A DNA stretch of 64,000 nucleotides, from assembly GCA_030442055.1 (NCBI GenBank), contig JAUJEB010000005.1, forward strand, positions 124,001 through 188,000, given 5' to 3'. Made by a program: the position numbers and the translations under genes. Shown here one piece after another: positions 50,915 to 60,418 of this stretch; position 1 is the first letter of the stretch, and every line of letters starts with the position of its first letter. The DNA comes from Agaribacillus aureus. GTDB taxonomy: Bacteria; Bacteroidota; Bacteroidia; Cytophagales; Cyclobacteriaceae. The notes beneath the pieces were generated by a model. It saw only the letters and a list, made by a program, of their open reading frames with translations, was not told the DNA's origin and made no database searches.

Positions 50915-51392
50915 TTTGCCAATCATCATCTTATAATTTCCTGAATTTTTAAAGTATGATTTGCCGTAGTTTTATTGCGAGCGATTCAGTTAAAACTGAT
51001 AGCGCGCGTTTGAGTGTAACGGAAACGCGTGCACCACGTGATAAATCAGTCGGCTATGATCTCAGCAGTTATAAATAACCTCCTTTGTATAGCTGGGTTT
51101 GCATTTTTGGATATTTTCGAAGAAAGCAAATTGTGGATTAATCTTAAAACCCGCACGCGTTACACTTCGTTAAACGCGCCTTTAGATTAGCTTAGTAGAA
51201 AATAGTTATATTCCAAAGTAAATTAAAACAGCAGGGGTGGACTAATAAACGCGCTAAGTTTCTAAGGCTTATATGGCGCATGAGTTATCTGCAAATTTCA
51301 CTAGAACCAATTTTATCTTCCATTTTTCAGGTTCAATGTAACTTTTGTGATTAGCTGTGCAACTTACTTGCATACGAGAATAATTTTGATCT
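50915..51392. other. intergenic region with inverted hairpin repeats
   Basis: This 478-nt spacer contains the REP-like hairpin at 51002-51032 and its reverse-oriented relative at 51153-51179. The stretch between them is weakly similar to copies A and B. Another AAACGCGC core is at 51248-51255. The rest is AT-rich and carries the promoter of the ECF sigma gene. No gene was seen. Confidence 0.45.
51002..51180. repeat. dispersed repeat copy C with inverted hairpin ends
   Basis: GCGCGCGTTT pairs with AAACGCGTGC (51023-51032) across an 11-nt loop. At 51153-51179, GCACGCGTT and AAACGCGC show the same arms in reverse orientation. The unit of about 180 nt has the look of a small palindrome-ended mobile repeat. 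It is related to the element at 18661. Confidence 0.5.
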
Positions 51393-51923
51393 GTGAAAAA
51401 CAATCAACAAAAGGAATTTATCAAATTATATGATCCAATTCATAATCAATTATTTGGTTTTTGCAGGGCAATTTCAGGAAATGTCCAGGATGCTGAGGAT
51501 CTCATGCAGGATACAGTGCTGACGGCAATAGAGGGGTTTAAAAAATTGCGGGATAAGTCAGCTTTCAAATCATATCTTTTTAGTGTTGCCTGTAACTTAA
51601 ATAAAATGAAAGCCAGGAGGAAAAAATTTAGAGCCGAATTTAATAAGCAGGAACTCATGCAGCTATCGGATTCAAGCAAAAACCCTGAGTCATTGGTAGA
51701 TTTTCAGATTATTCATGAGAAGATGCTCAAGCTACCGGCTAGAATGGCTGAAACCCTGGTTTTGTTTCATATCTGTGACATGTCACTTGAAGATATATCG
51801 AAGATCCAGGGAGGCTCCCTTTCCGGGGTGAAATTACGCCTCAAGAGAGGTAGAAAGAAGCTTTTGTCGATGTTGAATTCACCATCAGAAATGAAAAAGG
51901 CCCTACTGTTTTTAACGATTTAA
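51393..51923 (+). CDS. ECF-type RNA polymerase sigma factor
   Basis: This 176-aa sigma factor has sigma-2 at about 6-75 (LYDPIHNQLFGFCRAISGNV, then QDAEDLMQDTVLTAIEGF) and sigma-4 at about 108-165 (MAETLVLFHICDMSLEDISK, then SGVKLRLKRGRKKL). Unlike the two ECF42 sigma factors it has no C-terminal extension. It is translated from a GTG at 51393 and followed after 13 nt by a membrane protein in the position usually held by an anti-sigma factor. Confidence 0.92.
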   Translation: MKNNQQKEFIKLYDPIHNQLFGFCRAISGNVQDAEDLMQDTVLTAIEGFKKLRDKSAFKSYLFSVACNLNKMKARRKKFRAEFNKQELMQLSDSSKNPESLVDFQIIHEKMLKLPARMAETLVLFHICDMSLEDISKIQGGSLSGVKLRLKRGRKKLLSMLNSPSEMKKALLFLTI

Positions 51924-51936
51924 CAAGATTACAGGC

Positions 51937-53751
51937 ATGAACTATTCGGAGAAAGATATTGACAGGTTTTTTGAGCGCTTCAAGCAATTGCCTAATAACT
52001 ATCAATTAGATAAGATTCATGAGTTGATTAAAAGATTTCCATCAGATGTACCTCGTAGCGAACCATTTCCAAAATCTTTTAAATTTTATTTTGCAATGAC
52101 AACATTCATAATGGCACTTTTGACCTCATTGTTTTTTCTATTTAATACCAATGATAAACAAACGCTTCAAACATCTGAAAATAAAGAGCAAGCACAAGCA
52201 GTGTCACCGGACTATGAAAAGATACCAAAAGACTCATCGGTAAACAACGAAAGATCTGCTATCGACAATGCATTTCAACAAAGTCAATTGAAAGACCAGC
52301 AGGTGGAAAGCGTGGAAGGCGATGGCCCAAATAGCTTTAATAAATCTCAACCAACTAAAAAATCAACCAAAAATAGGTCAGGCATAGTTAATGATAACAA
52401 CCAACGGCCAGGAGTTACTTTGCAAGGAGGTAAAAATGAAATGTCCTGTGATTGGCCATCTGATACGATCGTTGATGGCTCCAAATTGGAAGTTTTATTG
52501 TCCAACGATGAGCTTTCTAAATTAGGCTTTATGATTAATGAAACCGGTGTATATTATAAAAACAGATTCCGGAATAAAACGGCTTGCTTTCACGACCGAT
52601 TTGAAGATGGTGATGGGGAAATGACCAATCTAACCAAATCTCCAAACCAAAATAATAAAAAAGAGCACTATTCAACGCACGATTTTTATCCCGTATTTAT
52701 GACAGATTTTCTCTATCATCCCGGCCTTGCGGTAGATGGAAATCCCGAGGTGTTTGGAGTAAGGAGAGATACGCTGGTCCCTGTCAGAATTCAAGCAAGA
52801 ATTTTGGGGAATTCCGACACCGATATCATTATGTGGTTTATCCCAACACCCAATTTTTTCAATGCATTACCTGCTAAATACCGCCACCTTCACCCCATTT
52901 ATAGTTGTTTGCGGGCTATTAAGAAAAGAACCGGGAGATCGGAAATAGTACGTTTTAGGCAAAAATCACTTATCCGGATAACTCAATTTGTAGAGCCCGA
53001 TAAGGAGACGCTTTTGCAACTGGGATTTGAATTTGATAACGACAAAATCATTTATAAGCAAAGGGGGAAAACATGCTTTTTTATGGTTACGATTAGCAAA
53101 TTCTCGCAATCCATACATGTAAAGGATGAAGAGGTTATTGCTCAGGATCCTGATTTAAATTTAGTTTTTTTGTCTGATACGGTTGGCAGACAAAATATTA
53201 AATGGGCTTGCCGATCCTCGACGGACAAGAACAAGCACAACAGGCGAAATTTTGAAAAGCTTCATGATCTGCTTGTTCCTGTCAAATTACGAAAACAAAA
53301 TTATCCAGACCTGTTATCTAAGGACCTAATCTTCTGGTTTGAACCTTCTGAGGCATTATTTAATGCTCTGCCCAGTGATCTTGGAGAACGAATCAAGCAA
53401 GAATATGAATCCATCGTTTCCGAGCCTAATAGCAGAAAAGAGAATAGTAGCTCCTGTACCTTCTTTGAAACATGCAGATCAACTTTACATTTGGATGCAA
53501 TGCGCCTTTTCCCAAATCCGGCTCAGGATCAATTGAGTTTGCATTTCAACCTGCATAAGGAACAGTTTGGATCTATTTCCTTATTAACTATGGGGGGCAT
53601 TAGGGTAAAAGAACTTCTTTCGGATGCGATTATTTTTCCAGGAAAAAACACTTATGAATTTGATATATCGGGCGTGCCTTCCGGGATTTATTTGCTATCT
53701 ATTATGACTTCAGAAGGGTTTAAAACCCAACGAGTAATTGTTCAAAAATAA
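51937..53751 (+). CDS. membrane-anchored protein with duplicated domain and T9SS type A sorting tail
   Basis: This 604-aa protein has an unusual layout. About 47 cytoplasmic residues (MNYSEKDIDRFFERFKQLPN at the start) come first, then one membrane helix at 48-69 and a Gln/Lys/Asn-rich linker to about 180. Two diverged copies of one domain follow (about 184-325 and 346-492), sharing LGF...YYK/YKQR, a KTxCF segment, LVPV, and IMWFIPTPNFFNALP versus IFWFEPSEALFNALP. It ends in a T9SS type A tail (522-604; LFPNPAQDQLSLHF, then VPSGIYLLSI). The N-terminus and position beside an ECF sigma factor suggest an anti-sigma role, but no known anti-sigma motif was recognised. Confidence 0.8.
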   Translation: MNYSEKDIDRFFERFKQLPNNYQLDKIHELIKRFPSDVPRSEPFPKSFKFYFAMTTFIMALLTSLFFLFNTNDKQTLQTSENKEQAQAVSPDYEKIPKDSSVNNERSAIDNAFQQSQLKDQQVESVEGDGPNSFNKSQPTKKSTKNRSGIVNDNNQRPGVTLQGGKNEMSCDWPSDTIVDGSKLEVLLSNDELSKLGFMINETGVYYKNRFRNKTACFHDRFEDGDGEMTNLTKSPNQNNKKEHYSTHDFYPVFMTDFLYHPGLAVDGNPEVFGVRRDTLVPVRIQARILGNSDTDIIMWFIPTPNFFNALPAKYRHLHPIYSCLRAIKKRTGRSEIVRFRQKSLIRITQFVEPDKETLLQLGFEFDNDKIIYKQRGKTCFFMVTISKFSQSIHVKDEEVIAQDPDLNLVFLSDTVGRQNIKWACRSSTDKNKHNRRNFEKLHDLLVPVKLRKQNYPDLLSKDLIFWFEPSEALFNALPSDLGERIKQEYESIVSEPNSRKENSSSCTFFETCRSTLHLDAMRLFPNPAQDQLSLHFNLHKEQFGSISLLTMGGIRVKELLSDAIIFPGKNTYEFDISGVPSGIYLLSIMTSEGFKTQRVIVQK

Positions 53752-58830: not shown

Positions 58831-59172
58831 ATGGATGAATTCATGTTACTGATGAAGGGAGATGATTCACAAAGTGCATCACCCGCTGAAATGCAAAAAC
58901 GTATGGGGGACTATATGACCTGGATTAAAGGAATGGTCGAAAAGGATAAATTTGTGGCAGGACAGCCCCTGGTTCCCGCAGGTAAACACCTCAAAGACAG
59001 GGAAACCGTCCTGACTGATGGCCCTTTTTTAGAGCCGAAAGAAATCATTGGCGGCTACATGATTATTAAGGCGCAGGATCTTGACGAAGCGACGGCAATC
59101 GCCAAAACCTGTCCCCTGCTACAACATTGTGAAATTTTTGTGAGACCTGTCATGAATGTGCCCGCAGGATAA
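58831..59172 (+). CDS. YCII family (DGPF) protein
   Basis: This 113-aa DGPF protein has TDGPFLEPKEIIGGYMIIKA, nearly identical to its paralog at 39954-40289. The following ECF42 sigma gene overlaps its end by 17 nt, so they are co-translated. The pairing is the standard ECF42 arrangement. Confidence 0.93.
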   Translation: MDEFMLLMKGDDSQSASPAEMQKRMGDYMTWIKGMVEKDKFVAGQPLVPAGKHLKDRETVLTDGPFLEPKEIIGGYMIIKAQDLDEATAIAKTCPLLQHCEIFVRPVMNVPAG

Positions 59173-60418
59173 AGATCTCCACAACATTGATCATTTAATT
59201 GACCACCTTTTCCGAAATGAATATGGTAAGGTGGTCTCTTTTTTGACCTTGTCTTTTGGTTTTCATTTTCTCGAAACCGCAGAAGATATTGCCCAGGATA
59301 CCCTCGCTGAAGCCTACAAAAACTGGGGGTATAACGGCATTCCGCCCAACCCGCATGGCTGGATTTTTAAGGTAGCCAAAAATAAAGCCCTTAATTACGT
59401 CAGAAGGGAGAACATAAAACAAAGCGTTTTTGAAAAACTGGACAAAGAGGAAGAGCAAGTGCAGGGAGAAATTTTTCTTAACCGGGAAATAGAGGATAGC
59501 ATGTTAAGGATGATCTTTGCCTGTTGCCATCCCATCATTCCGGGCGAGAGCCAAATTGCCCTTATCCTTACAACACTGGGCGGGTTTAGCAGAAAAGAGG
59601 TGGCTTACGCCTTGCTTTCCGACGAAGAAGCCATAAAAAAGAGGCTTTACCGCGCTAAAAAGGAGATCAGGCAGTCAAACATCGTGTTAGCCGTACCCAC
59701 TGGCGATGAGCTAAGCGAAAGGTTGAAAACTGTTTGCATCAGTTTGTACCTGCTTTTTAATGAAGGTTATAATGCATCTCATTCCGATGAACTGATCAGG
59801 AAGGACTTTTGTTTGGAGGCTGTAAGGCTTACCAGGCTATTGGCCCAGCACTTTCCCGGGGAAACCAGAGTTTCAGCGTTGCTGTCTCTCATGCTTTTTC
59901 ATGCGGCGAGGCTTAAAAGCCGGATTGATGACAAGGGGGCTATTGTATTGTTCCGAAATCAGGACCGGAGCTTGTGGAATCAGGATCTTATCAAGGCAGC
60001 CTATTTTTATTTGTCGGAATCCTCGAGGGGATCCACGCTGACCTCCTATCATCTAGAGGCCAGTATTGCGGCACAGCATTGCTATGCGCCGACCCACGAG
60101 AAAACAAACTGGCCATTTATTTTTGATTTGTATTCCAGGTTGTATGAGATAAAACCCTCACCCGTCATCAAATTAAACCTGGCTATCGTGTCCAGCAAAA
60201 TAAAAGATGCTAAATATGGGATTGAACAACTTGAGGCGTTGATAAAATCCGAGAAAAAGCTTAAAAACTACTATCTTTTATATGCTACACTCGGCCAGTT
60301 ATATGTCGAAAACGAAGAGAGGGATCTGGCTATTTCAAATTTTGAGCGAGCCAAATCCCTGACAGCTTCCGAAAAAGAAAAGGAGTTTCTTCAAAACCGC
60401 ATTGACGCCCTTTCCTGA
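59156..60418 (+). CDS. ECF42-type RNA polymerase sigma factor with helical C-terminal extension
   Basis: This 420-aa sigma factor has sigma-2 at about 20-90 (VVSFLTLSFGFHFLETAEDI, then AQDTLAEAYKNW) and sigma-4 near 118-180 (MLRMIFACCHPIIPGESQIA, then ALLSDEEAIKKRLYRAKKEI). The helical extension follows (ISLYLLFNEGYNASHSDELI). It is paralogous to the gene at 38647-39945. The ATG lies inside the YCII gene, 17 nt before its stop, which couples their translation. Confidence 0.92.
   Translation: MCPQDKDLHNIDHLIDHLFRNEYGKVVSFLTLSFGFHFLETAEDIAQDTLAEAYKNWGYNGIPPNPHGWIFKVAKNKALNYVRRENIKQSVFEKLDKEEEQVQGEIFLNREIEDSMLRMIFACCHPIIPGESQIALILTTLGGFSRKEVAYALLSDEEAIKKRLYRAKKEIRQSNIVLAVPTGDELSERLKTVCISLYLLFNEGYNASHSDELIRKDFCLEAVRLTRLLAQHFPGETRVSALLSLMLFHAARLKSRIDDKGAIVLFRNQDRSLWNQDLIKAAYFYLSESSRGSTLTSYHLEASIAAQHCYAPTHEKTNWPFIFDLYSRLYEIKPSPVIKLNLAIVSSKIKDAKYGIEQLEALIKSEKKLKNYYLLYATLGQLYVENEERDLAISNFERAKSLTASEKEKEFLQNRIDALS

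Follow-up and report, generated by a model that had tools for sequence, protein, structure and literature searches.

An ECF sigma factor gene paired with a putative membrane regulator that ends in a T9SS sorting domain

The window, which is the 64,000-nucleotide stretch of DNA that was analysed, contains an ECF sigma factor gene directly followed by a gene for a membrane-anchored partner protein that ends in a T9SS type A C-terminal sorting domain (CTD). This architecture goes beyond chance because it recurs at 13 further loci, five of them in another class. We suggest that the two genes very probably form a real signalling unit, and that the partner probably has an anti-sigma role. Engagement of its tail by the T9SS is, in our judgement, a little short of an even prospect. 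On balance, we give about an even chance to the whole reading, namely one signalling unit in which an anti-sigma-type inner-membrane regulator reads the state of the translocon through its tail. The pairing, the predicted topology, the tail, their conservation and a promoter-like element are all drawn from sequence.

The sigma factor gene (51393-51923, forward strand) starts with GTG in our reading of the ORFs. Its 176-aa product has regions 2 and 4 (Pfam PF04542, E 2.7e-12, and PF08281, E 7.9e-10) and neither an extension nor any other further domain. The gene for the partner, a 604-aa membrane-anchored sigma-associated regulator with a T9SS tail, begins 13 nt past the sigma stop codon (51937-53751, forward strand). 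ORFs and Pfam thus confirm the original prediction of an extension-free ECF sigma gene followed after 13 nt by a 604-aa protein. The layout it gave for that protein (a cytoplasmic N-terminus, one helix, a domain in two copies and a T9SS tail of type A) was likewise found by hydropathy, BLASTP and the PF18962 and TIGR04183 models. In the window's own genome (G000), which has 91 tail matches, the pair was the sole case of a tailed ORF directly 3' of a sigma match among the 150 region-4 matches scored out of 297 candidates.

The partner opens with a cytoplasmic N-terminus of 47 residues (51937-52077), a putative sigma-binding or anti-sigma segment with two predicted helices. Its single transmembrane helix, at about aa 48-70 (52078-52146), is placed by the structure model and by the one clear hydrophobic peak of the hydropathy plot, with the N-terminus inside by prediction. 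The structure model, made with nine sequences (mean pLDDT 65.9), has short helices at residues 5-17 and 24-32 and a long helix at 48-84; on the C-terminal side it has two domains that are alike and then a seven-stranded tail. A probably disordered periplasmic linker occupies about aa 71-175 (52147-52461), with pLDDT below 50 at residues 73-167. Two copies of a repeat domain come next, at aa 185-313 (52489-52875) and aa 351-480 (52987-53376; domain model pLDDT 84.5, pTM 0.81), and the sorting domain follows at aa 524-602 (53506-53742); all of these features lie on the forward strand. The two repeats, each of about 140 aa, align with each other at a BLASTP E of 2e-6, a score that none of 2000 shuffles reached. 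The repeat domain matched no Pfam model and no PDB sequence, and its model found no counterpart among solved folds (best E 0.33); as judged by these searches, it is a new periplasmic domain. Among the nine partners from the window's family, with domain limits set by hand, mean pairwise identity stands at 29.2% for repeat 2 and 27.6% for the tail, compared with 21.6% for the N-terminus and 13-17% for the linkers and helix; by this measure, tail and repeat are about equally conserved.

Tailed pairs were found at no fewer than 14 loci in two classes, nine in the window's family (eight genomes, five genera) and five in another class, which bears out the expectation of a conserved neighbourhood in related genomes. 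All locus counts are lower bounds, since they come from the best 8 or 10 candidates per genome in samples of larger groups. A scan of the close-relative genome contig set with partner residues 1-518 returned nothing, and a single-sequence search with the partner in 98 genomes, its own included, matched seven other genomes, in each case only via the tail, within aa 514-603. A two-repeat profile run on 390 genomes of the order gave at least one more match, in G312. With a profile of four sigma factors, at least 24 sigma loci were recovered from 390 genomes of the family, in at least 18 genomes including the window's own. Downstream of those 24 sigma loci we found nine tailed partners, 13 untailed membrane partners and two membrane parts fused to the sigma factor, the type at one locus (L063) being read by eye. 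A profile of 12 repeat copies matched at least the window's own genome and G864, from another class, among 395 genomes of the phylum; among 390 family genomes it matched at least the same eight tailed genomes, with one weak partial match. This weak match, in G620 (E 3.8e-5), has an in-frame stop and was dropped on inspection of the ORFs. The tailed pair is present in at least 5 of 13 genomes of G864's family and in at least 5 of 7 of its genus. Each of the five distant loci has a sigma gene and a partner with helix, repeats and tail. The distant partners are longer (about 769-1096 aa) than the nine from the window's family (346-611 aa, with one or two repeats). Sigma and partner genes overlap by 4 nt in seven of the 14 tailed pairs, L095 being among them if an internal ATG is its start; counted to the first possible start, the spacing of the remaining seven lies between -59 and +26 nt. 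One locus (L055, G602:C11) carries two tailed sigma/partner pairs on the same strand, about 3.4 kb apart.

In a tree of 29 sigma proteins, all 14 that have tailed partners form one clade (FastTree support 0.954, one run), and the 15 proteins of the sister clade all have membrane partners that are untailed (13) or fused (2); some of the rows, tailed and untailed, came from searches that had themselves been seeded with such rows. PF18962 was found in none of the 15 sister-clade proteins at E 0.1. Four of the untailed partners (L054, L056, L057 and L058) have a DUF2807 GIN domain. The fusions, L065 (G519) and L070 (G003), are natural proteins that join an ECF sigma factor to a membrane and a periplasmic part, and L065 has a DUF2807 stretch inside and a beta-lactamase-like domain at its end. 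Because these two relatives carry sigma factor and membrane part in one chain, we place the segment before the helix in the cytoplasm. This cytoplasmic segment is conserved among the tailed partners by profile comparison: the tailed N-terminal profile of the window's family scored above all 200 shuffles against 5 of 5 distant partners and 5 of 12 untailed ones. The reverse comparison, with an untailed N-terminal profile, did so for four of nine tailed and one of five distant partners. Together, the two comparisons give no more than partial support to the segment being homologous in tailed and untailed partners. Against the two fused relatives, the score of the cytoplasmic profile was not above shuffles. 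No anti-sigma domain of Pfam or NCBIfam was matched in the partner, and a profile of the N-terminal segment matched no solved anti-sigma factor among PDB sequences.

The original prediction had named a cleaved signal peptide as the finding that would undo its reading of the helix. The nine partners of the window's family speak for an anchor, with 44-71 residues ahead of a helix that starts at residue 45-72, more positive charge before the helix than after it and no Ala-x-Ala-Gln cleavage site that we could see by eye; untailed and fused relatives point the same way. The five distant partners have a like layout, with the helix starting at residue 54-60, and each of the 12 untailed partners that were measured shows a single main helix in a similar position. 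By prediction, the window's partner has a single helix with the N-terminus in the cytoplasm. The cleavable N-terminal signal peptide that is a feature of T9SS cargo was not seen in the partner by hydropathy and eye.

At the other end of the protein, the tail is matched by PF18962 (aa 524-602, E 3.2e-9) and by the type A model TIGR04183 (E 1.1e-8), and it is the sole part of the partner that scores above a curated cut-off. All 14 tailed partners exceed the curated cut-offs of both models. With Foldseek, the full partner model matched the solved mirolase CTD 8qb1 with probability 1.0, a TM-score of 0.65 by target and an E of 0.014, no match to the full model reaching E 0.001 or better; the aligned range is presumably the tail. 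SprA was found above cut-off in all 13 genomes with a tailed pair and in none of 14 control genomes, and it is from the presence of SprA that we infer membership of the Bacteroidota for the genomes with a tailed pair.

The predicted promoter of the pair, TGTAACTTTT-N11-TGNNACTTA, lies at 51337-51366 on the forward strand and resembles elements before the sigma genes of relatives. With the looser pattern TGTAACTTNT-N11-TGNNACWTA, 51337-51366 is the only exact match in its own genome. The shared element has two boxes, of GTAAC type (GCGAC in the distant set) and, after 14-16 bases, of G..AC or G..TC type. A regular expression for it, written after the same sequences had been viewed, matched upstream of 22 of 28 sigma genes (the sigma locus in G622 being left out), including 13 of the 14 with tailed partners; shuffles give an expectation of 0.35 in 28. 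The one tailed miss is G508, in which by eye a similar element overlaps a doubtful start. The unit looks autoregulated because the shared element precedes the sigma genes; the promoter is probably recognised by the sigma factor itself, and the unit probably regulates its own expression. Upstream of the promoter, an imperfect inverted repeat can be seen by eye in the intergenic DNA at window positions 51001-51182.

A longer promoter pattern, run on eight genomes, had a single exact match in three of them (G000, G509 and G489), in every case at the sigma gene; the remaining five had no exact match. A wider regulon did not emerge when up to two mismatches were allowed in the eight genomes, the matches being no more numerous than those of a reversed-pattern control (10 against 26 in G000, 17 against 21 in G509, 6 against 29 in G489, 6 against 17 in G312, 14 against 24 in G597, 13 against 26 in G602, 16 against 62 in G613 and 9 against 11 in G508). 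At the same stringency, none of these genomes had a match close to sprA. Of the nine non-sigma matches that we looked at individually (all eight that had a single mismatch, plus one that had two), eight fell inside ORFs. The ninth, a one-mismatch match (L114, G000:C16:6441-6470), has a CmlA-type diiron hydroxylase gene (PF18456, E 1.9e-96) 141 nt downstream of it. This hydroxylase gene, which is not a T9SS gene, is the lone candidate target.

How might such a unit work? We favour a regulator that reads the translocon because docking of a CTD in SprA/PorV has a precedent and feedback through PorA and SigP has been suggested. According to PMC10994853, the CTD of type A cargo binds PorV inside the SprA pore, and motor energy is proposed to pull the complex out. 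In Porphyromonas gingivalis, the sigma factor SigP lies downstream of PorA, a protein with a CTD, and feedback from T9SS function has been proposed (PMC7712824). By analogy, it is plausible that the tail of the partner is a bait for the T9SS machinery, as the original prediction suggested. In the scheme that we propose, the cytoplasmic segment would hold the sigma factor, and the flexible linker would give the CTD enough reach to dock, as cargo does, in the PorV/SprA translocon of the outer membrane. Once docked, it could not leave because the inner membrane holds the partner by its N-terminus. Docking, pulling by the motor or cleavage of the tail would then change the regulator and free the sigma factor, which would probably transcribe at least its own operon. 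Sigma binding, docking and release are the steps of this scheme that we infer. The unit would in this way report the availability or activity of the translocon, tuned by ligands of the repeat domain. More specifically, and with distinctly less assurance, we suggest an inner-membrane anti-sigma factor that uses a genuine T9SS tag as its probe, with tension or cleavage freeing the sigma factor. Docking of the tail could differ from that of cargo because Arg stands in all 14 partners at an aligned position near the C-terminus where Lys is the commoner residue of cargo. We equate this column, by assumption, with the near-invariant Lys of the T9SS cargo CTD in PMC10994853. In 60 cargo tails taken from the 91 tail matches of the window's own genome, Lys occupies the position in 32 and Arg in 21 (Fisher p 5e-6 for the Arg enrichment, relatedness ignored).

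The Arg column also fits a different and rather unlikely account, in which the genes are an ECF sigma/anti-sigma unit and the tail, its sorting role lost, is a spare beta-sandwich domain of the periplasmic sensor that detects or stabilises something with no link to the T9SS. Such a purely structural role is allowed by CTD-like stretches inside the distant members: all five (L075, L094, L095, L096 and L097) have two to three PF18962/TIGR04183 stretches each, one of them terminal, and the internal ones are unable to be C-terminal sorting signals. From these, the CTD fold appears able to work simply as a module of the periplasmic part. In addition, the sister clade works without tails, and in Foldseek the partner model is matched by Ig-like DUF3244 structures to much the same degree as by the mirolase CTD. 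However, one tail module with the usual ending is kept at the very C-terminus at 14 of 14 loci, the tail is conserved to about the same degree as the repeat, every genome with a tailed pair has SprA, and Arg is itself present in about a third of the cargo tails. A translocon-reading role of the tail, as opposed to a structural one, is what these last points favour.

If the tail is export-competent, as it looks, the T9SS might instead export the C-terminal half of the partner, leaving a chain that spans both membranes and repeats that sense surface signals. The periplasm is 20-30 nm wide, and the 74-182 flexible residues between helix and tail have a contour length of 26-64 nm, which would be enough. 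We nevertheless regard this arrangement as quite improbable: PorV with its cargo is released sideways from SprA in the model of PMC10994853, while a chain tied to the inner membrane would remain threaded and obstruct SprA. Least probable of all is that the partner is normal T9SS cargo whose signal peptide is unusual and which lies behind a sigma gene by accident. A T9SS tail and a hydrophobic segment in the N-terminal part are what such cargo would have, but the long segment before the helix and the lack of a visible cleavage motif in the nine partners, with the distant five alike, speak against it, as do the pairing conserved across classes and the existence of untailed and fused relatives. 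Moreover, 38 of 40 N-termini from other tailed proteins of the window's own genome (40 of its 91 matches, judged by hydropathy and eye) look like ordinary signal peptides; of the two exceptions, one (L218) is truncated at the end of its contig and the other is an M56 receptor. It is also unlikely, though less so than either of these, that the partner, instead of being an anti-sigma factor, co-regulates positively or is a sensor that works via another protein. The partner matches no recognised anti-sigma domain, and class I anti-sigma factors are neighbours of only 6% of Bacteroidetes ECFs according to PMC7406223. Its position, topology and two-helix segment, however, resemble the short class II (CnrY-like) anti-sigma factors described there, and natural sigma-membrane fusions exist. 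An anti-sigma-type regulator that reads the translocon is the reading we carry forward.

Compared with known systems, the partner resembles anti-sigma factors of the RseA/RsiW/CnrY type in its gene directly after that of the sigma factor, its short cytoplasmic segment, its one membrane helix with a periplasmic sensor part and its probable autoregulated promoter. It differs from them in having no recognised anti-sigma domain and in adding a terminal T9SS type A CTD and a new repeat domain. The PorA/PorXY-SigP system of P. gingivalis is alike in that the input to an ECF sigma factor comes from a protein with a T9SS CTD, which may report on how the T9SS functions, but PorA is a surface protein with a signal peptide and a FimH-like domain that acts via a two-component system (PMC7712824). 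In the window, the tail sits instead on an inner-membrane partner encoded with the sigma factor. An ECF/anti-sigma pair of F. psychrophilum is tied to T9SS genes via SM6 promoters and itself lies behind one (PMC9723704). The SM6 promoters have a conserved CGT box at -10, whereas the box of the window pair is of ACT type, and the available part of PMC9723704 nowhere mentions a T9SS tail on the anti-sigma factor.

A closer parallel in one respect is found in the window's own genome (L208:2749-5401; G000:C34, about 178248-180900), where a gene for a BlaI-type repressor (PF03965, E 1.9e-26) overlaps one for a BlaR1-type M56 receptor (PF05569, E 1.4e-29) that contains a Plug domain and finishes with a T9SS tail (PF18962, E 5.1e-11). 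Like the partner, this receptor is an inner-membrane signalling protein ending in a type A tail; it differs in being of protease type, in having a repressor gene in place of the sigma gene and in its unrelated domains. The trick of tethering the tag may have arisen there separately.

Our searches of the open-access literature, at the level of abstracts, brought up no described anti-sigma factor, nor any membrane protein paired with a sigma factor, that bears a T9SS tail, in agreement with the earlier statement that no described system is known to have such an architecture. If the tail engages the translocon, this would be, within that same literature, the first described T9SS export tag on an inner-membrane regulator that senses secretion. 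If the more specific view of a tethered cargo is true, the partner would relay T9SS activity, within a single chain, from the outer membrane to transcription. In a phylum where so few ECF sigma factors have a class I anti-sigma neighbour (PMC7406223), which leaves the control of most of them open, the tailed clade supplies a concrete type of partner. Its short N-terminal segment, its predicted promoter and its new periplasmic domain can each be tested directly. Further along the window, at 58831-60418, a YCII-domain gene is followed by a second ECF sigma gene with a DUF6596 domain, which we take to be ECF42-like.
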